A stretch of DNA of 64,000 nucleotides from Nitrospira sp. (lineage in GTDB: Bacteria > Nitrospirota > Nitrospiria > Nitrospirales > Nitrospiraceae). Shown here one piece after another: positions 503-11,000 of the stretch (positions are counted from its first letter, which is position 1; every line of letters starts with the position of its first letter). The notes beneath the pieces were generated by a model that saw nothing but the letters and a program-made list of their open reading frames with translations, ran no database searches and was not told the DNA's origin. The position numbers were made by a program, and so were the translations under genes. The stretch covers positions 1,054,001 to 1,118,000 of the forward strand of contig JARFXR010000002.1 in NCBI GenBank assembly GCA_029194535.1, given 5' to 3'.

Positions 503-1138
503 CTAAAACTTAAGAGCGAACTCATCGACAGATCCCTCCACCGATCGTGCGCCCAGCTTGAGAAGCGCGCCGTTCGCTTCACTCGCCAGCGTGGAGACAG
601 GCTTCTTCCATGAGGTGAGAACCCGGCACAGTTCGAAGGTTTTGCTGTCAGGAGCGGCGTAGGGAACGACAATGTGCTCGGCCAGGGCGGCCACAAAGCG
701 ATTGCGACGCAGAGCGGTGTCAACGGTTGCGCGGCGCACTGTGTCAGAAAACGGCGAGAGGTACAAAAGCCGACCTTCTTCAAAAGCGGGCTTATGTTCC
801 GACGGTATCCGCATCCCCTGAAGTCCCCTAGCTGGGCACACAATGACCGGCTGCATTCCGCGTAGAAGAATCCGCAAACACTCTTGTTCCATCGGCGAAT
901 GAAAACCGCCAATAACCGGCACACCAGCCTCACGTAACTTCTTCGCAAGGTCGTAGGTTTGGAGGATGATGTTGCCAGGACATTTCACCGAACAGATAAG
1001 AGCGAGGGGTTTGCTGTTGAGGATTTCGGGATTCCCAATGGAGGCAATCCGAGAAGGAGCCTCAGCGCCGAGGTACTGAGCCAGCTGTGAAGGGAACCGC
1101 GCATCTCTAGAAGAACGCCACACAAGAGCTGTCGGCAT
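503..1138 (-). CDS. DprA-like SLOG-fold protein
   Basis: A 211-residue protein related to DprA/Smf, the Rossmann-fold single-strand DNA binding RecA loader, and to other SLOG proteins. Visible family features are the GGFHSPMEQECLRILL segment (the place of the GIDxxAHxxAL motif), the strand PVIVCPARGLQ (place of TIAVLxxGl), the RRNRFVAALAEHIVV segment (place of the RNRIIAGLS motif), and a C-terminal ANGALLKLGA like the NxLIxxGA end of DprA. It has no N-terminal SAM domain and no C-terminal winged helix, so it is a minimal DprA. It starts 20 nt after the DarG-like gene. In this setting it more likely senses nucleotides or single-stranded DNA for a defence system than serves transformation; that is inference. 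Confidence 0.75.
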   Translation of the reverse strand: MPTALVWRSSRDARFPSQLAQYLGAEAPSRIASIGNPEILNSKPLALICSVKCPGNIILQTYDLAKKLREAGVPVIGGFHSPMEQECLRILLRGMQPVIVCPARGLQGMRIPSEHKPAFEEGRLLYLSPFSDTVRRATVDTALRRNRFVAALAEHIVVPYAAPDSKTFELCRVLTSWKKPVSTLASEANGALLKLGARSVEGSVDEFALKF

Positions 1139-1158
1139 GCTGTCTGTGAACCCACGAT

Positions 1159-2283
1159 CTAGGCTGGGATGGCCTCATCCTCCGGCACCGGTAGATTTGG
1201 ATCGGCCGTAATAGCCAGCCATCTCAAGGTGGCGAGATTGCGAATGGTCGAGGCGACCGTACTTCGATCAAGAGGCGGACGACGTTTCTGCTTCCACTGC
1301 ATGACCGCCTCCAGTACCGTCATCTCAGAAGGTACCTCGCGCTGTGCTCCCGCAAGTTCACGGGCAGCAAACAAAACGGTAGCAATGACCTCGGCTTGAT
1401 CAGTGTTGACCCTGGTGAATAGGTCGGCGGTCTTGTCGAGGACCTTATCCCATTGTTCAAAGGCTGGCACATACTTCTGGCGAATGCGGCTGAAGTTCGG
1501 CCCCACAGTGACCATGAACATCTTCCCACGGCGTTCTTCCTGTAGCAGGCCATTATTGACCAACTTCGCTCCGAGAGCTTTCAACTCGCCTGAGAACGGG
1601 CCGAAGCTGCTTCGCTGATAATGTAACCCGGTTGGCAACCCTTCGTTGGTGGCAACGTAGGCGATTTTCTGAAACAGCGTTCTTCCAATCGGCCAATGGT
1701 AGGGTTGTTGCTCGATGCGAGCAAGAATTTCAACCAAGGCCACCCAAGCCGGATTCAGTGCTGACTGGCCATTTTTAGCGGCCGGCTCTGCATGCCGATC
1801 GGTGTCTTGAGCCAAAAACTCTACTGTGAGTTCTTTCGGGTGCGTGCCATAGGGGGCATACATCTCAATGGGAATACCCATGTCCTTCACGAACCGATAA
1901 ATCACGGGGCCAACCACCCGCCATTCCAATTGTCCGTTGCCGCATCCCAGGGGAGGAATGGCCAATGACGTGATACCCCATTCCCGATAACGCTCCACGA
2001 GGTGTTGCAGTCCACGCTCGATGTCGCTCAGTTTGGAGATCGACTTCCAATGGTCCTTGGTCGGGAAATTGATGATCTGTGGCGGGAACAGCGTCTTGTA
2101 GAGGTACGGGACGCCGGGTTTCACCTCACCACGTCGGCATCGGTTAACGTAATCCTCATACATGTCCGGGAATCGGTTCTTGAACTCAAGCGCGATCCCT
2201 TTTCCCATAACGCCCACGCAATTGACCGTATTGATCAGCGTCTGCGCCTTCGACTTCAGTATATCTCCGATTAGGATTCTCAT
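1159..2283 (-). CDS. DarG-like macro-domain protein with SocA/DUF4065-like C-terminus
   Basis: The first ~155 residues are a macro domain of the DarG/TARG1 type: MRILIGDILKSKAQ, NTVNCVGVMGKGIA, INFPTKDHWK with the family lysine, and IPPLGCGNGQLEW. Such domains remove ADP-ribose from thymidine in DNA. After a linker, residues from ~185 on (IGRTLFQKIAYVA, SSFGPFSGELKAL) resemble the SocA/DUF4065-like half found in DarG antitoxins. The usual toxin DarT (about 210 residues, DUF4433) is not next to it. I chose ATG at 2283 because it gives the family N-terminus; a GTG at 2292 in the same frame, 11 nt after the previous stop, is also possible. Known DarG neutralises DarT. Here its substrate is unknown. 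Confidence 0.8.
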   Translation of the reverse strand: MRILIGDILKSKAQTLINTVNCVGVMGKGIALEFKNRFPDMYEDYVNRCRRGEVKPGVPYLYKTLFPPQIINFPTKDHWKSISKLSDIERGLQHLVERYREWGITSLAIPPLGCGNGQLEWRVVGPVIYRFVKDMGIPIEMYAPYGTHPKELTVEFLAQDTDRHAEPAAKNGQSALNPAWVALVEILARIEQQPYHWPIGRTLFQKIAYVATNEGLPTGLHYQRSSFGPFSGELKALGAKLVNNGLLQEERRGKMFMVTVGPNFSRIRQKYVPAFEQWDKVLDKTADLFTRVNTDQAEVIATVLFAARELAGAQREVPSEMTVLEAVMQWKQKRRPPLDRSTVASTIRNLATLRWLAITADPNLPVPEDEAIPA

Positions 2284-2303: not shown

Positions 2304-2906
2304 CTATAACGCTACCCCGGTTGCCTTGGCGGCGAAACGGATGAAAGAGGCACAGCGCTTGATCCTGTTCAAGTCAGGCATCACTTCGATGATCTGCTTG
2401 GCATGGATCCGGTCGGTGTAAGGACGACCAGTATGTTGCAGAAAGGTTTTCATGATCCGTTTTTTCGGGTTGTTGACTTTGTCGGAGCTCTTCACATCAG
2501 CAACTCGGACTGGATGGGCCGGTCGAGACAAGACTTGTGAGATGGCCCTTCCGTCCGTAATCAACCAGGCTTCCAATTCCTGTTCAATGCAAACGAGATA
2601 CACGTGTTTCGATGAGACCTTCGCCTTCTTCAGTGATCGCGCAATAGTTTGTCGGTCTTCTCTTCGACAGGGTTTAGCCCCAGCTTCACGCCATGGCGGA
2701 TAGAGGTCCCACACGATGACCACGCGCTCGCATCCATCCTTGAATAACTGAGATGTCGCCTCTCCGCAATCCGGCAGCAGCTTGCGTTTGTTATCGAGCG
2801 TGATGCTGACGATCTGGATTGAAGGTTTGAGGCGACGTGCCAGCAGCTCGCACACGACTTTGTCGGCACCGGCTGGACCGCACTCGAAGATCATCCCGAC
2901 TTTCAT
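2304..2906 (-). CDS. DUF4276-type TOPRIM-like protein
   Basis: A 200-residue protein that starts inside the stop of the AAA ATPase gene (ATGA at 2903-2906). It has an early glutamate in IFECGPAGADK, an acidic strand VVIVWDLYPPW near residue 70, and CIEQELEAWLITD near residue 107, the E-x-E-A-W-L-x-x-D signature typical of DUF4276. That family is predicted to be TOPRIM-related and is usually encoded directly after an AAA_21 ATPase. The acidic residues could bind metal for a nuclease reaction, as in OLD nucleases or the AriB effector of PARIS. A role as effector controlled by the upstream ATPase is inferred from gene order. Confidence 0.7.
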   Translation of the reverse strand: MKVGMIFECGPAGADKVVCELLARRLKPSIQIVSITLDNKRKLLPDCGEATSQLFKDGCERVVIVWDLYPPWREAGAKPCRREDRQTIARSLKKAKVSSKHVYLVCIEQELEAWLITDGRAISQVLSRPAHPVRVADVKSSDKVNNPKKRIMKTFLQHTGRPYTDRIHAKQIIEVMPDLNRIKRCASFIRFAAKATGVAL

Positions 2907-4063
2907 CGGGCGTGCTTCTTGTTGAATAGGCCCATCGTGTAGAGACGTCCCGGGCTGAAGTCACGCGCCCAGCGCTGTAAGGCCTTCTGGTCCGCTGGCC
3001 GCGTAAAGGTGGGTTGGCCATCAATGCGCTCGACCATGATGATGTGGGAGAGGTCCAGAAGATCCAGAAGATAGGGCGAATGGGTCGTGACAATGACCTG
3101 CGAACGCCCTGATTCAACGAGGGTGCGAATTTCATCCACGAGCAAGTGTAGAGTTCGGGGATCGAGCCCGTTTTCGATTTCTTCGATCACAATCAGAGGC
3201 GGCGGAGTCGGATGACGAAACAGCGCGAGGAACGCGAGAATCCGAAGGGTGCCGGTCGATAACAGCCAACCAGGAACTTTGAAATCCGCTTCCGACAACT
3301 GGAGGTAGACAGTCCGTTCTAATTCTGACGTCAGAGCAGGCTGTAAGTCCTTGGCGTATGGCAAGACGTGTTGCAGTGTCTCTACGATGCCGTCGAACGC
3401 CGCCTGATCGAGCCTGCGAATGCTTAAGAGATAATCGGCCAAGTTTGCCCCTTCCTTGTTCAACCGGACCTGGCCACCGGTCCGGTGCTGGGGAACCGGG
3501 GCTCCCATGGATTGGGGGATGAGGGACACAAACTGCCAGCTCGATATTTCACTTCCCAGAGATCCCACAATGCCGGCTTGGCCATCGCTAAAGACTCTTC
3601 TATTCGGTTCCACACCTGGGACGCGAAGTGTCATTCGTCCCTTTGAGTCGCGAACCATTGTAGGTTGGTTCGGAACCTTCACCTCCTCGTGTTCAATGAA
3701 GATCTCGTTTGTCCCGGGAGCAGCATTGAGGACAAGAGCGGCGGTGAATGGACCCAAGGCTGAACGCCCAGCAAGTTGAAAACTCATTGGATTCTCAAAG
3801 CATGGGCGTCTCTCGCCAGTCCTCCTGATATTCCGCCGAACTCCCTGATGCCACACATGTTCAAAACCTCGCCAGGGTTGCATGGCAACATCCAAGCCGC
3901 GCTCAACAATCGCTTGGAGGGTCTCTAAGCCCTCTGTGATGCTGCTCTTGCCGGAACCGTTGTTGCCGATGAAGACGGTCAATGGTGTGAAGCGGACGGG
4001 GCCGCTATCCCTCACAGCCTTGAAATGCTTGAGGCGGAATGATCGAAGGAACCGCGTTCTCAT
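2903..4063 (-). CDS. AAA family ATPase (AAA_21, SMC/OLD-like)
   Basis: A 386-residue ATPase. FIGNNGSGKSS near residue 32 is Walker A, LLSTGTLRILAFLALF occupies the place of the ABC signature, and LIVIEEIENGLDP near residue 290 is Walker B with its catalytic glutamate, followed by an H-loop VIVTTHSPYLLDLL. The fold is that of RecF/OLD-type ATPases in which the two halves of one ABC domain are joined by an inserted region. Its start overlaps the methylase stop by 4 nt and its stop overlaps the DUF4276 gene by 4 nt, so the three are translated together. The pair ATPase plus TOPRIM-like protein recalls PARIS and OLD/Gabija-like systems. It probably senses invading DNA or phage proteins and triggers the partner. 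Confidence 0.85.
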   Translation of the reverse strand: MRTRFLRSFRLKHFKAVRDSGPVRFTPLTVFIGNNGSGKSSITEGLETLQAIVERGLDVAMQPWRGFEHVWHQGVRRNIRRTGERRPCFENPMSFQLAGRSALGPFTAALVLNAAPGTNEIFIEHEEVKVPNQPTMVRDSKGRMTLRVPGVEPNRRVFSDGQAGIVGSLGSEISSWQFVSLIPQSMGAPVPQHRTGGQVRLNKEGANLADYLLSIRRLDQAAFDGIVETLQHVLPYAKDLQPALTSELERTVYLQLSEADFKVPGWLLSTGTLRILAFLALFRHPTPPPLIVIEEIENGLDPRTLHLLVDEIRTLVESGRSQVIVTTHSPYLLDLLDLSHIIMVERIDGQPTFTRPADQKALQRWARDFSPGRLYTMGLFNKKHAR

Positions 4064-7000
4064 CGGACCAGTCCTCGCTCCACATCGCGGTAAGCATTGC
4101 GTGCCGCTTCCTTCACTGGATCAGGAACCAGCGGGAAGGTGGTGAGGATATATGCGAACTCTTCTTCCGTGAGCCCGTAGAGATGTGCGATGAGGCCGTC
4201 GAGTTCGGCCCGGAGCTTCGCCCGCTCGGTGGAGTCTATCGCACCCGCCTTGAGACTCTTGAGGCCGACTTCCTTTGCGAGGTCATTAAACTCAGGCGTA
4301 GTACAGATCAACCGTGCTGCCCGCTCTACAATCGGCCAGAACGCCTCGTTCTTCTCCGTAAGACGAGGAGTCGGTATCTCATAGAGGAAAAACATGTTCA
4401 TGTTCGTCAGGATTTTCTGACGAATGAACCAGTCTGCCGCGAAGCTCGAAAGCACGGAACATGCGAAGAGTAGACGCGGAGGGTTGTCATTCTCAGCTTG
4501 AAGCCAAGTTTCCCCCTCAATTTCGTCACGAACCGGGAGACTGACTAGAATAGAGTTGCCGGCGAATACCATCTTTGGAATCACTGAAACGACCAAGGTC
4601 CGTTCATTAGTTGCGCCAGTCACAGCGCGAATCCCGACCCTGTAATGGCTGTACCCAAGAATAATCTCCTCCTCATTCACTTCTTCAGGCAATCCATGTT
4701 GGCGCAGCATTGTTCTGATACCACGGACCCTTGCTGCGAGCAGTTCATTTACGCCCTCGCGCTCGTTGATCCAGTACCGGATGCCGCTCTTTCCATGTTC
4801 GTAATGCCAGATCATCTTCCCTTCGTAAAGGGGTAACCGTCCTGGGCCAGGAGAAGTCTTGAACAGGCGGCTATCGTTGGTCATATGGAATTCTGCCGTA
4901 AGCTTCAAATTCCAGGCTCCTTCGACCTGGTTACCTAACAGTGGAAACCGCAGCATCTTTTCGGCGATTCGAACGTCCAGATCGTTTTTGAACTCCATGA
5001 TCGACAGGGAACCGGGAGAGAGCCGGCGGATAAGATCCACGGACATCTCGATGGCGCCCTCTTGAGGAAACCGGTCCAGTTCCTGAACATCGAGTCGCAT
5101 GAAGGCAGCAGGGAACTGCTTGGTGACGCCCCCGTTCTCGAAGGTTAAAACAATGAACTTGTAGCTTCGATGCACGCCGTCGAATATTTCCTTACGGTTC
5201 TCAAAACCAAATAGGCCCGTGACATTGGTCTCCGAGAAGAGCATTTCTCGGAGCTGCTTGGCGCCTAGGTCGGTGTAAATTCCGCTGGGAATCACAATGC
5301 CGCAATGCCCGCCCTGTCGGAGAAGATTGAAGCATTGCTCTGTGAACAGTTTGTAGAGGTTAATGTCAGTTCCGGCCTTCTTGCCATCCACGACGGTGAT
5401 TTGGTTTTTGTACTGGGGAGCGGATCGGAAGAACGCGCTGATGTGGGGAAATCGGCTCAGATATGCAAGATATTTCTCCCGCACTTTCGGTTGCTCAAGC
5501 AATTTGACAAGGCGCTTCTCAAAATCTTTGATGTCTGTGCCACGTCGCTCCACCTCAGGATCATATTCGTAGCAGAACTCCTTCGCGATGGGTTTGAAGA
5601 TTTCCCAGGGTGGATTGGTGATGATGGCATCAAACCCGCCTCTCTTGTTGAGGATCTCGTCGAATTCATAGCCCCAGTGAAAAGGCTTCAGCTCTTGGAT
5701 ATCGGTTTCCGATAGCGGACGCTTGTGCGTCTTCCCTTCCTTATTCTTTTTCTCGTCCCAGGTGGCCTCTTCGTATTTGATCCCCAGAGATTGAAACTGA
5801 TCGAGTAGTAGTCGATCCAAGAGCCCTTTTGCTGTCCGTTTCTTGTCTTCGATATCGTGCCGAAGATGTCGCAAGTCTTCGGCATACACGGATGCGTGCC
5901 GATAGGTCTCAACGAGGCGGTTCTTTTCTGCGAGCGCCTGCCGATAATCCTTGAAGTAACTGGCGGTCGCCAGATCGTCGGCATACTTGGCAAAGTCCTG
6001 GTCATCCACACGTAGTAGCCCGATGAGAGAGTTCCCCGCCAGAATATTGAAATCAATGTTGGGCAATGGTTCCAATTGATCGGCAGTTTCCGCGGAGGCG
6101 ACGAGGGCGAGAAAGAGACGAAGCTTCGCGATTTCCGTCGCCTCTTCCATGATGTCCACGCCGTAGAGATTGTCGGTAATGATGCGTTTCTTGATGAAGT
6201 AGCTCAGGCTCTTGTGCTCCCGCTCGGCCTGAGCCAGCCAGGCGGACAGATTGCGGTCGTTTAGAAACTTGATCTTCCCGATGATGGCTGCGTAGAGGTT
6301 GATGAGGGTCTTCATCGCTGCGACCAGAAACGCGCCGGACCCACAAGCCGGATCGAGTAGGCTGAGACCAGCTAGCACGTCATTCAGAAGCTGTCGGCAA
6401 AGCGGCGCATCCAGGTCCATAATGAGGTCAGGAATGTTTTGATACTGATAGTTCTTCACGCCAGGGATATGATGGGTTTCGATTGTCGCTGGTGTGTTGA
6501 TGGCGTTGAGGATCAACCGGTAGATGGTGGCTTCGCAGAGATACTCCGTAATTTCCGGTCTCGTGTAGTAGGCACCGAACGCTTTCTGGTTGATGTATTT
6601 CTCAAAGATGTACCCCAGAACGTCCGGGTTAATCTCGTTGTCTTCTCCGCCTGGGGTGTCGTTCAAATTCCAGGAATACCGCTCAAACAGGGCGAATAGA
6701 TTTTCAAATGCCTTGTCCGGCACGTCGATCTTGGGATTGTCTTCCTCGATGTTGTGCTGCAGGAAAAGACCGCCGTTGAGATACCGTATCGAGCCGAGCC
6801 GCTCTCGCGCCTCCGCCGAGCGTTCTTGCTCTGGTTTGGCGAAGCCTTCGAAGAAGAGGAGTTTCAAGAACGTTCCGAAATACCGGTTGGGTCCTACCGT
6901 CTTCCGAGTCTCTGCCAGCTTGGTCTGGAGATAGTCAAAATTGCCGTTGTCGATAAAGCCCTTGCGCTGAAGAAAGTAGATAAACATGAGCCGATTGAGG

Positions 7001-7614
7001 AGCACGGAGGCGTACCACCGGCGGTCCCGTTCATTGGCGATCCCACGGATATATTCCAGGAAGGCCAGGTGTTGTTCTGAGAATTCTCGATAGAATTTCT
7101 TTGTGACCTTCTCGACATCCAGCGCTTCTCTGAGCCGGCCGGCGACTTCGACCACTGGCACACGCCCCAATTCGTCCAGCTCGCTGATGTCGAACACCAT
7201 GGCGCTCAGCTTGCTCAGGAAGAGGTCTCCCGGCTGACCTTGCACGTAGATATGCTCGCGCGGATAGGTTTTCGAGCCTTCGCGCTTGACCCAATACCAG
7301 AGGCTTTGGGTCCGGTGCCGGTCAAGAAAGATCAGGAGGTTTTCATGATGCTGCCTGGCAATCGATTTGTAGGCAGCCGCCCGGATCTTCGCGTTGGGGA
7401 TGGCGCCGTCTTGTGCCATGATTTCCAGCACGACGACTCCGGACAATTCCGCGATCTGTTGAATCGCGAACTGTATTCCGTCGTGGATTAAAGACGTTGG
7501 TTTTCGGACGGATGGTTGAGACCAGCCCAATTCCTCTATAAAGAGGGTCCGAAATTCGAATTTCTGGAGCAGCGACCGAGTTCTAGGGATGTTGAGTTTG
7601 GCCATTGAGATCAC
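4060..7614 (-). CDS. Eco57I-type DNA adenine methyltransferase (1184 aa)
   Basis: A large class-I SAM-dependent DNA methylase. AYYTRPEITEYLCE near residue 345 precedes motif I, LLDPACGSGAFLV near 417, and the N6-adenine catalytic motif NPPW lies near 667. The ~340 N-terminal residues and the ~450 after the catalytic motif hold helical and target-recognition regions; I see no clear PD-(D/E)xK nuclease site. The frame opens at GTG 7614, overlapping the helicase stop (GTGA); ATG at 7605 is an alternative start. Proteins of this size occur as the methylases of type ISP and DISARM class 1 systems. It probably marks host DNA, with cleavage or translocation supplied by the upstream PLD-helicase. Confidence 0.9.
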   Translation of the reverse strand: MISMAKLNIPRTRSLLQKFEFRTLFIEELGWSQPSVRKPTSLIHDGIQFAIQQIAELSGVVVLEIMAQDGAIPNAKIRAAAYKSIARQHHENLLIFLDRHRTQSLWYWVKREGSKTYPREHIYVQGQPGDLFLSKLSAMVFDISELDELGRVPVVEVAGRLREALDVEKVTKKFYREFSEQHLAFLEYIRGIANERDRRWYASVLLNRLMFIYFLQRKGFIDNGNFDYLQTKLAETRKTVGPNRYFGTFLKLLFFEGFAKPEQERSAEARERLGSIRYLNGGLFLQHNIEEDNPKIDVPDKAFENLFALFERYSWNLNDTPGGEDNEINPDVLGYIFEKYINQKAFGAYYTRPEITEYLCEATIYRLILNAINTPATIETHHIPGVKNYQYQNIPDLIMDLDAPLCRQLLNDVLAGLSLLDPACGSGAFLVAAMKTLINLYAAIIGKIKFLNDRNLSAWLAQAEREHKSLSYFIKKRIITDNLYGVDIMEEATEIAKLRLFLALVASAETADQLEPLPNIDFNILAGNSLIGLLRVDDQDFAKYADDLATASYFKDYRQALAEKNRLVETYRHASVYAEDLRHLRHDIEDKKRTAKGLLDRLLLDQFQSLGIKYEEATWDEKKNKEGKTHKRPLSETDIQELKPFHWGYEFDEILNKRGGFDAIITNPPWEIFKPIAKEFCYEYDPEVERRGTDIKDFEKRLVKLLEQPKVREKYLAYLSRFPHISAFFRSAPQYKNQITVVDGKKAGTDINLYKLFTEQCFNLLRQGGHCGIVIPSGIYTDLGAKQLREMLFSETNVTGLFGFENRKEIFDGVHRSYKFIVLTFENGGVTKQFPAAFMRLDVQELDRFPQEGAIEMSVDLIRRLSPGSLSIMEFKNDLDVRIAEKMLRFPLLGNQVEGAWNLKLTAEFHMTNDSRLFKTSPGPGRLPLYEGKMIWHYEHGKSGIRYWINEREGVNELLAARVRGIRTMLRQHGLPEEVNEEEIILGYSHYRVGIRAVTGATNERTLVVSVIPKMVFAGNSILVSLPVRDEIEGETWLQAENDNPPRLLFACSVLSSFAADWFIRQKILTNMNMFFLYEIPTPRLTEKNEAFWPIVERAARLICTTPEFNDLAKEVGLKSLKAGAIDSTERAKLRAELDGLIAHLYGLTEEEFAYILTTFPLVPDPVKEAARNAYRDVERGLVR

Positions 7615-10600
7615 TCTGAAGATCCTGCCAGTCCCATGGAACAGATGATCCGTGGTTCCTGGGTCTGTTCTTCCTCATGAATCAGACAGAGCCGGTCCTC
7701 TTCACGGAGCGCAACCACCAGTTGTGCCAGTGCTTCATCAGACACCCCGCTTCGGAGTTGGCGATTGAGCGTATCCACGGCGGCTTGGCGGAGGGGATAG
7801 CGGTAGATTTCATCAATCGCTTTCAGGAGTTCCTGAGACTCGAACAACGTGCCTTTGACATGTTCCGCATAGCGCTTGAGGCGTTCATACGTGCGGAAAC
7901 GTGCCCCCGAAGGCCGTCCCAATTGTCCCCCAACTGTTTTCTCTTCCGTGATAATCAACTCGACGCCCTTCTGGACGAGTTCGTGATGGTTCTCCTGGCG
8001 ATGGAGAGCCGGGGTGTCTGAGCTACACGCCGCGGCCTGGAGGATGGCGAACTGAGACTCCGTGACGGCGGTACCGTGTTTGTCGATCCAGGCCAGCGCG
8101 TCGTTGCCTTCGGCCGTTCTGAGATACACCAGCACCCCGCCTGGCTGCTTATCCGTAGGATCATGCGCCCGTGTGGCAAAGATCACGGGCGGCAGATCGG
8201 GAATGGTCTTTTGTAAGCCGGGATCGGCGGTAATCGCGTTCTTCCAGATTTGGTAGGCATAGGAGGCCAAATCGACTTCCGTATCCGCCTCTCCATCCAG
8301 GATGCCTGCTTTCTCATGGTAGAGATTGAGGACGGCATGATCGTTTCGATCATCCTCGAAGAAGGCCTCGTCGGTTCCAACCACCTCCGCATTTTCTTGC
8401 AGGCGACGCCGCACCATGGCTCGGAGTCGAATGATGCGCTCGACGCCTTCGGCTGGCAAAAACGAGTAGCAGAGGATGTTCTCAGCTTTCTGTCCGATGC
8501 GGTCCACTCGGCCCGCTCGTTGGACGAGGCGAATGATGGCCCAGGGCAGGTCGAAATTCACCACGACGGCCGCGTCTTGCAGGTTTTGCCCCTCACTGAG
8601 GACATCCGTGGCAATCAAGACTCGCAACTCTTCGCCTGGTTTCAGTCTGTCGCGCTTCTCATTGCTGTCCGGACTGAACCGCCACGCCAAGGCCGTCGGG
8701 TTCGGAGAGTCTCCGGTTGCACCAGCCAAGGATGAGATTCCGCGAGCCGCGAGCTGAGTCTCTAAGAAGCGGACGGTATCGGCAAATTGCGTAAAGATCA
8801 GGACTTTGTCATTCCGGTGTTTCTTCATGAGCAAAGCGACAAGGGCCTGAAGCTTGGCGTCTTTGTTCGCGTCCCATTCACCGCAGCGTTGCAAGATGTT
8901 TAGTAGAGCCTCTGTATCGCTCCGCAAATCGTTCTCTAACGATTTCACAAGGAGTCCTGGCGGCACCCACTTAAATCGCCGCTTGAATTGACCAGCGAAC
9001 TCCTCGTAAATCTCAGCTCCTCGACGAGCGAAGTCCTTGGCCGTTCTTAGCGATCCTGTTCGAGGCCGCTCTTGCTCATGATCGGTCTCGTCATCCTCAA
9101 ACAATCCCGTCTTAGCTCCGGGGGCGTCGGCATCTTCGTCGTAGATGCGCGCATCGAGCATCTCGGCATCTTGCGTGCCGATGGGGATGGGCTTCTTCTG
9201 TTCGATCGCATGTAGGTAGACGTGATTGCGGAGAATATGGCGTTCGATGGATTGGAGAAAGGCCTGGCCGCTGCTTTCGAGACGCTTGAACAGATTCGTC
9301 CGACAGAACCCCATGAGGCGTTTTCCGGCGCGAGACAGGTCTTGCAGCAATCTCGCTTCCGCTTGTGTCGGTGGTTCATGCGGTGTCGCCGCGACATAGT
9401 TTCCCAATCCGTACCGAGGGAGATTGAGGGCGTTGATGGTATCGACGATATCGTCGGCGTAGAGCCGCGCATACTGGTCCGTGGGGTTGGCATCGTCAAT
9501 CGTAAAGGGCACTGTTCTTGGGACTCTGACGGGAAAGTACGACCGGCTCCCATCCTCAAAGGTGAGAAATCTCCGTCCGCTGGCCGGGTCGGTCTGGGCA
9601 TAGTTGTCCTGAATGAAACTGCGGGTGCGTCTCACCATGTAAAGGCGCATCAGTTCTCGCCAGTCGTCCGCATAGTCGCTCTTCTCGAACGCCGCCAGGG
9701 AGCGCACGGGACATTGATGCCGTCGACTAAACTCGGTTTCGGTGAGCTCGCGAATTAATCGTTCGGGACGAACGCCGAGGTCTTTGTCTTCTTTGACGAA
9801 GAGACGCAACTGGTTGGAAAGGTCGAGATAGGTTTTGTTGTACGGGGTGGCAGAGAGCAGAATGCATTTGCTCTCGTTGGCTTGAATGTATTCTTGAATG
9901 GCTCGATAGCGTTTGCCGTCACGGTTGCGCAGATTGTGGCTTTCGTCGATGAGCACGAGGCGGTATCGGCGCAGATCAGGCAGTTCTCCCACTACCTGGC
10001 TGATGGACAACACCTTCGCGTGCAACCGGTATTGCGCGCGATAATCCTCCCACATCGAGACCAAGTTCTTGGGGCAGATGATGAGCGTTTCGAGTCCGTG
10101 GTCGTCCTCCATGATGCGGGCGAGAGCCGTAGCCATAAGAGTTTTGCCCAGCCCTACAACATCCCCAATCAATACACCACCACGCTTGTTCAGGTGATGC
10201 GCAGCAATTTTGACCGCCGCCGTCTGGAATTCGAATAGTCGATTGCCAAAGTCCCGTGGAATTCGAAATTCAGAAAGCCCGGCCCGTGCCTCTTGCGAAA
10301 GATGGTACGCCATCTTGATATAGATATGGTACGGAAGCGCAAGTTCTTCCCGAGCCCAACTCTCTTCGATAATACGGACGAGTTCTTCGGATATATCCAC
10401 ACACCAACGGTCGTTCCATCGGTCCTCAAACCACTTGGCCAACTTCTGGCAGGCGTCGTGATCGAGGACATCCACATTCAGCTCGCCCTGCTTGGAAAGA
10501 CCTGCGAGCGTCAGATTGCTGCTTCCTAGGTACCCGACGGTGGGATTGATGGGATCGGGGCGGAACAGCAGGTACAACTTGGCATGGAGAGGATGCCGGA

Positions 10601-11000
10601 GGAACAGTTTGACAATGACCTTCTTGGATTTAATCTGTTCGGCCAGCTTGCGTAGACCGGCTTCGTCTTCGTTGGTCGGAATGCCGACGCTCAATTGCTC
10701 GCGGAACTCTTCGGCGAGCTTCTTTTTAAGGCGAATTGCCGTCTGGTTGTCTATCTCGCCACCCCGACTGATCAGGCTCAACGCTTCACGCAATTCGTCC
10801 TGTGGCAACCGCTGCATGCCGACGAGAAGTCTGCAGCAATGGCCATCTCCGCCGGCCCATTGTTCGATGTGCGAGTCGAGCTGCTTCCATCCGCGCAAAT
10901 TGAAGTATCCAACACAGAAATCCGCGCGGTCGGCAACCTGGATGGTTGCGCGCAGAGCAGGTAGGAGAGATTGTTCGATGTTGTCGAAGATTCGGGGCAT
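7611..11000 (-). CDS. Phospholipase D-like nuclease fused to SNF2-type helicase (1129 aa)
   Basis: The N-terminal ~230 residues are a phospholipase D-like domain with one HxK motif (HAKLYLLF near residue 138) followed by GSSNLT near 158. The rest is a superfamily 2 SNF2-like motor: VVGLGKTLMA (Walker A, near 278), DESHNLRN (motif II, near 348), LLSATPYNK (motif III), and QRAGRVDRIGQ (motif VI, near 827). One HKD motif per chain suggests that the nuclease works as a dimer. It is the first gene of the seven-gene block and overlaps the methylase gene by 4 nt. No strong Shine-Dalgarno or consensus promoter is visible upstream; a TACACT hexamer (reverse of 11032-11037) is a weak -10 candidate. Fusions of this kind are found in restriction-like and DISARM-like systems. 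Confidence 0.9.
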   Translation of the reverse strand: MPRIFDNIEQSLLPALRATIQVADRADFCVGYFNLRGWKQLDSHIEQWAGGDGHCCRLLVGMQRLPQDELREALSLISRGGEIDNQTAIRLKKKLAEEFREQLSVGIPTNEDEAGLRKLAEQIKSKKVIVKLFLRHPLHAKLYLLFRPDPINPTVGYLGSSNLTLAGLSKQGELNVDVLDHDACQKLAKWFEDRWNDRWCVDISEELVRIIEESWAREELALPYHIYIKMAYHLSQEARAGLSEFRIPRDFGNRLFEFQTAAVKIAAHHLNKRGGVLIGDVVGLGKTLMATALARIMEDDHGLETLIICPKNLVSMWEDYRAQYRLHAKVLSISQVVGELPDLRRYRLVLIDESHNLRNRDGKRYRAIQEYIQANESKCILLSATPYNKTYLDLSNQLRLFVKEDKDLGVRPERLIRELTETEFSRRHQCPVRSLAAFEKSDYADDWRELMRLYMVRRTRSFIQDNYAQTDPASGRRFLTFEDGSRSYFPVRVPRTVPFTIDDANPTDQYARLYADDIVDTINALNLPRYGLGNYVAATPHEPPTQAEARLLQDLSRAGKRLMGFCRTNLFKRLESSGQAFLQSIERHILRNHVYLHAIEQKKPIPIGTQDAEMLDARIYDEDADAPGAKTGLFEDDETDHEQERPRTGSLRTAKDFARRGAEIYEEFAGQFKRRFKWVPPGLLVKSLENDLRSDTEALLNILQRCGEWDANKDAKLQALVALLMKKHRNDKVLIFTQFADTVRFLETQLAARGISSLAGATGDSPNPTALAWRFSPDSNEKRDRLKPGEELRVLIATDVLSEGQNLQDAAVVVNFDLPWAIIRLVQRAGRVDRIGQKAENILCYSFLPAEGVERIIRLRAMVRRRLQENAEVVGTDEAFFEDDRNDHAVLNLYHEKAGILDGEADTEVDLASYAYQIWKNAITADPGLQKTIPDLPPVIFATRAHDPTDKQPGGVLVYLRTAEGNDALAWIDKHGTAVTESQFAILQAAACSSDTPALHRQENHHELVQKGVELIITEEKTVGGQLGRPSGARFRTYERLKRYAEHVKGTLFESQELLKAIDEIYRYPLRQAAVDTLNRQLRSGVSDEALAQLVVALREEDRLCLIHEEEQTQEPRIICSMGLAGSSE

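Follow-up and report, generated by a model that had tools for sequence, protein, structure and literature searches.

What is an antitoxin kept for in a genome from which its toxin is missing? This question is raised by a 64,000-nucleotide stretch of a Nitrospira genome (contig JARFXR010000002.1, positions 1,054,001 to 1,118,000; hereafter the window), where a gene for the antitoxin DarG (darG, 1159–2283, minus strand) lies 20 nt ahead of a gene for a DprA-like protein (dprA, 503–1138, minus strand). An initial annotation of the sequence had already placed both genes at these positions. The answer depends on whether DarG is complete, on whether a DarT toxin exists anywhere in its reach, and on the company that the two genes keep in other genomes.

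DarG and the search for DarT

DarG is recognised by the Pfam Macro profile (E 1.7e-15), by the PADLOC DarG model (E 4e-90) and by the NCBIfam equivalog antitoxin_DarG (NF048014), the latter at 297.6 bits (cut-off 250). Because the NF048014 match spans residues 3–350 of 374, it also covers the C-terminal DarT-binding domain (approximately residues 186–374). The macro domain (residues 1–150) carries the catalytic lysine K76 in an FPTK motif that aligns with T. aquaticus and other DarG structures, which bears out the earlier reading of a macro domain with the DarG motifs, FPTK lysine included. The macro domain of DarG takes ADP-ribose off thymidine (PMC11543638), and its C-terminal domain is an ssDNA mimic that occludes DarT, according to a passage of PMC11481870 citing Deep 2023. 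Compared with DarTG2 systems, the window protein thus possesses the macro domain with its catalytic lysine (NF048014, K76) and the full DarT-binding domain, as judged from the full-length profile match and from the conservation of all 55 invariant C-terminal residues. It differs in that no DarT (DUF4433) adjoins it in the window or occurs elsewhere in the genome, and in that an AAA_21–DUF4276 gene pair stands where its relatives have DarT.

The toxin was sought at several levels. A whole-genome search with the PF14487 profile returned no DarT from an assembly that is 99.88% complete, and the same profile detected DarT in the genomes of relatives and controls. A second search used an alignment of the cognate DarT subfamily, assembled by way of relatives of the window DarG, and gave zero matches in the genome up to an E-value of 10. 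No remnant of DarT was detected at the operon junctions by tblastn with 11 DarTs, nor by direct inspection of the bases preceding darG. The initial annotation had reported no DUF4433 toxin nearby and had suggested looking for one in the rest of the genome; the first statement holds for the entire window, and both genome-wide searches came back empty. A DarT was equally absent from the genome containing L019, the locus of a Nitrospira orthologue of the window DarG. Beyond the host, the cognate DarT subfamily was found in none of 50,697 phage records, and all plasmid DarTs were less than 32% identical to it. DarG-like macro domains are encoded in 280 phage records; none spans 80% of the window DarG, so that most would be devoid of the DarT-binding domain.

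The operon and its DprA-like protein

The darG–dprA pair closes, at the 3' end, a minus-strand operon of six genes, a context missing from the initial annotation. The operon starts with a PLD (HKD) and SNF2 helicase of 1129 aa (7611–11000; Pfam, NCBIfam, PADLOC), followed by a type IIG-like Eco57I restriction-methylase of 1184 aa (4060–7614; Pfam, PADLOC), an AAA_21/OLD-like ATPase resembling HEC-01A and MAD3 (2903–4063), a DUF4276 protein that occupies the place of DarT in DarT-linked relatives (2304–2906), DarG and finally the DprA-like protein. The junctions consist of 4-nt overlaps (GTGA, ATGA and, between the ATPase and DUF4276 genes, ATGA) and then of 20-nt gaps. Two more genes, which may or may not be operon members, lie downstream of dprA on the same strand: a DUF3800 gene, which lies 140 bp after dprA and runs from 363 past the window start to −197, and a nucleotidyltransferase-like gene (−1465 to −965). 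A promoter and terminator scan around the 3' end of the operon (L001 10000–13300, corresponding to −2000 to 1300 of the window) stayed at chance level. A search of the genus for an empty site gave no clean example: in a relative (G353) the flanking alpha-E gene is present and the island absent, but the neighbour is a different one, so that the precise insertion point could not be delineated.

The composition of the operon predicts a restriction-type phage-defence locus, an assignment that we hold as rather likely as part of the overall explanation given below. The methylase has its Eco57I domain in one long protein, as in type IIG enzymes (PDLC03628 REase_MTase_IIG, E 2e-122; Eco57I, E 2e-24), and the helicase matches the HKD+Snf2 model C3a139. 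The likeness to DISARM DrmD–DrmMI is distant: DrmD scored 124.7 bits against a cut-off of 610, and drmA, drmB and drmC are absent among the operon proteins. What sets the operon apart from PLD-SNF2/type IIG systems is the additional DprA-like 3' gene together with a slot for cargo genes, for which we found no description in the papers searched. The AAA_21 and DUF4276 proteins match HEC-01, MADS3-4 and OLD-like AAA plus DUF4276 modules; they differ from these in scoring below the curated NCBIfam cut-offs and in lying inside a restriction operon.

The last gene encodes a protein of 211 aa with the family motif GGFHSPMExECL..LLRGxQPVIxCPAR, identified by Pfam (DNA_processg_A, E 7e-11), PADLOC and its modelled fold. 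The AlphaFold (AF2) model (pLDDT 95) is a bare Rossmann domain whose nearest PDB folds are S. pneumoniae DprA (E 4e-13, TM 0.79), H. pylori DprA and ShosA, in keeping with the 'minimal DprA-like SLOG protein' of the initial annotation. It scores far below the level set for the transformation protein DprA, with 30.6 bits for TIGR00732 against an NCBIfam cut-off of 191. DprA homologues are also known from toxin–antitoxin defence pairs such as ShosTA and RqlHI (PMC9122126). The fold is shared with the DprA-homologue antitoxins of ShosTA, PsyrTA and RqlHI, ShosA (8zva) and PsyrA being among the best matches; the protein described here differs in comprising the minimal Rossmann domain only and in being found with a methylase. 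Pfam scans of the operon proteins revealed no adjacent partner toxin of the PsyrTA/ShosTA kind, such as a phosphoribosyltransferase.

Relatives of the DprA-like protein were sought in 84,980 species genomes, which yielded 80 loci. DarG is absent from the flanking DNA examined in 76 of them and present in four, and it is missing altogether from six genomes that encode the DprA-like protein. A methylase of the family seen in the window operon precedes dprA in 35 of the 80 loci, each time with both genes on one strand and never in the other orientation; of the 45 loci whose upstream sequence reaches 5 kb or more, 28 have it. In 10 loci it directly adjoins dprA. Wherever the contig extends far enough, the PLD helicase precedes the methylase. 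The DprA-like protein and the PLD helicase co-occur in four of 148 genomes of the phylum (nine genomes with each) where 0.5 would be expected (hypergeometric P 0.0007, ignoring kinship). The remaining loci have other genes upstream, among them Schlafen-AlbA, DUF1016/YhcG and type I/III restriction genes, which shows that the type IIG methylase is not the sole associate of the DprA-like family.

The cargo slot and the probable loss of DarT

The slot between methylase and dprA measures 0 to 5 kb and changes its gene content between loci. DUF5615/PIN with DUF433, NTase with HEPN, SLFN_AlbA, OLD-like AAA with TOPRIM, and Mrr are among its occupants elsewhere, and AAA_21 genes precede dprA without DarG in L081 and L092. 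A DarT–DarG pair fills the slot in L012 and L065, DarG without DarT in the window and L019, and, in L039, a DarG reduced to its macro domain in a genome without DarT. Seven loci have dprA immediately after DarG: the window, L019, L012, L026 (where a contig edge interrupts DarG), L039, L065 and L138. L138 is a degenerate helicase–DarG–dprA remnant with an N-terminally truncated DarG in a genome where DarT was not found; it lies, like L135, beyond the 80 loci and was reached via the helicase. Because these adjacencies involve two DarG subtypes, they probably arose more than once. Macro-domain and DprA-like neighbours without DarT, which the initial annotation had proposed to look for, do recur (window, L019, L039, L138); such a pairing is not general in the family, given the 76 loci without a nearby DarG and the presence of DarT in L012 and L065. 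In L135, a PLD-helicase/methylase locus without dprA, a RelE/HigA-like toxin–antitoxin pair is followed by a macro-only DarG (9022–10801), and the genome has no DarT. In L027, an N-terminal DprA-like fragment (3997–4266) and a full copy (5965–6588) lie on either side of a Schlafen-AlbA cargo gene, a pattern suggestive of a cargo insertion that duplicated part of dprA.

The ancestry of the window DarG points to a toxin that was once there. Of the full-length DarGs encoded outside such operons, the ten closest (54–83% identity) all lie directly behind DarT and none adjoins dprA, and the tree places the window and L019 DarGs inside a supported clade (100/98) with four DarT-linked Nitrospiraceae DarGs. 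From these two observations we infer that DarT linkage is probably ancestral and that DarT was lost in the window lineage, which supports the option of toxin loss raised by the initial annotation. L019, whose DarG is 87% identical to that of the window and likewise lacks DarT, shares the layout methylase–AAA_21–DUF4276–DarG–DprA, and the loss would therefore most simply predate the split of the two lineages. Separate losses shortly before sampling are less probable, as the shared AAA_21–DUF4276 pair argues for one older event.

Both DarT-less proteins retain all 115 residues that are invariant among eleven DarT-linked DarGs (60/60 in the macro domain, 55/55 in the C-terminal domain). Between the window and L019, dN/dS of darG is 0.118 (macro domain 0.135, C-terminal domain 0.106) at a dS of 0.64, a value within the range of the other operon genes (0.080–0.192). 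Both domains of DarG are thus under purifying selection, probably also since the loss of DarT; the full-length DarT-less state is represented by a single orthologous pair (window and L019) from two genome assemblies, that of L019 being a MAG. In contrast, other DarT-less DarGs (L110–L112, L039 and L135) have shed a domain.

Competing explanations for the retained DarG

We consider it rather likely that DarG is a stand-alone antidote to DarT, an anti-toxin or anti-addiction shield carried as cargo of a restriction-type defence operon whose DarT was lost. The operon runs from the PLD-SNF2 helicase through the type IIG methylase and a variable cargo slot to the DprA-like protein, the cargo of the window lineage being the AAA_21–DUF4276 pair plus a DarG bereft of DarT. 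DarG would still act on DarT and its product: the macro domain would use K76 to remove ADP-ribose from thymidines of ssDNA, and the C-terminal ssDNA-mimic domain would bind the toxin. It would be kept for shielding the cell from the DarT of DarTG-bearing plasmids or of competing defence islands. The DprA-like protein would act for the restriction system rather than for DarG, probably as a sensor of ssDNA or DNA ends. On the conserved residues and the dN/dS, protection from incoming DarT, one of the options raised by the initial annotation, is the most likely reason for the retention. Against this reading, no DarT source matching the window DarG was found, given the low identity of the plasmid DarTs and the lack of a phage match.

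Could DarG instead be a decaying, functionless leftover of a DarTG module? Degenerate DarGs do exist, as the macro-only L039 and L135, the truncated L138 and the single-domain L110–L112 in DarT-less genomes illustrate, but the window darG has an uninterrupted counterpart in a second species, and its invariant residues and low dN/dS extend across both domains, which makes decay unlikely. We also doubt that the C-terminal ssDNA mimic has been re-used against another ssDNA-binding member of the operon, be it the DprA-like protein or AAA_21–DUF4276, turning DarG into an internal regulator or antitoxin. Such re-use would account for purifying selection on a DarT-binding domain without DarT, for the seven DarG–dprA adjacencies across two subtypes and for the known recruitment of DprA homologues into ShosTA and RqlHI; it fits poorly with a DprA-like protein that mostly lives without a nearby DarG, with AAA_21 preceding dprA without DarG in L081 and L092, and with residues that are exactly those of DarT-binding DarGs and betray no altered interface. 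An elaborated form, in which DarG is a domesticated, toxin-free operon component whose C-terminal domain restrains one of these partners and whose macro domain repairs ADP-ribosylated DNA, appears improbable.

Two further readings carry even less weight. DarT diverges fast (24–30% identity between subtypes), and a partner might have escaped both searches or lie in the 0.1% of the genome absent from the assembly; this is very improbable, since the cognate subfamily, ~41–68% identical wherever the window subtype is DarT-linked, would be found by the searches used, and nothing scored even at E 10 in a nearly complete genome. That the SLOG protein is the toxic effector of a new macro–DprA module, with the macro protein as its antitoxin, was proposed by the initial annotation and is scarcely credible. 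The 20-nt spacing and the few recurrent adjacencies are in its favour, but a toxin requiring DarG could not live as this family does, in loci and whole genomes without DarG and in ten loci directly behind the methylase; moreover, the DprA-like protein most resembles the solved structures of ssDNA-binding DprA and of ShosA, and DprA homologues in such pairs stand on the antitoxin side (PMC9122126). The two neighbours are therefore probably not toxin and antidote.

DarG itself, DarTG2 inside a restriction system (documented for the RRDM island of EPEC; PMC12255303) and DprA homologues in defence pairs (PMC9122126) were already known. The EPEC island resembles the present locus in placing a DarTG-type module within a restriction operon, but that island includes DarT and its host is a type I HsdMSR system, whereas here DarG stands alone in a PLD-helicase/type-IIG/DprA-like operon. 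Our literature search found no paper linking DarG with DprA and no description of a defence system that combines DprA with a methylase and a PLD/SNF2 helicase; the toxin-free yet constrained DarG and the PLD-helicase/type-IIG/cargo/DprA-like layout are thus apparently undescribed. The locus offers an antitoxin intact after toxin loss, including a domain whose sole known job is toxin binding, and makes the idea of 'antitoxin as immunity' testable for DNA ADP-ribosylation. It also points to a widespread PLD-helicase/type-IIG/DprA-like defence layout with an internal slot that swaps toxin–antitoxin and nuclease modules.

As a separate observation, three DarT-less Nitrospiraceae genomes (G333, G147 and G257; L110, L111 and L112) contain pieces of DarG, two C-terminal-only and one macro-only, and all three pieces adjoin the same citramalate-synthase-like gene.
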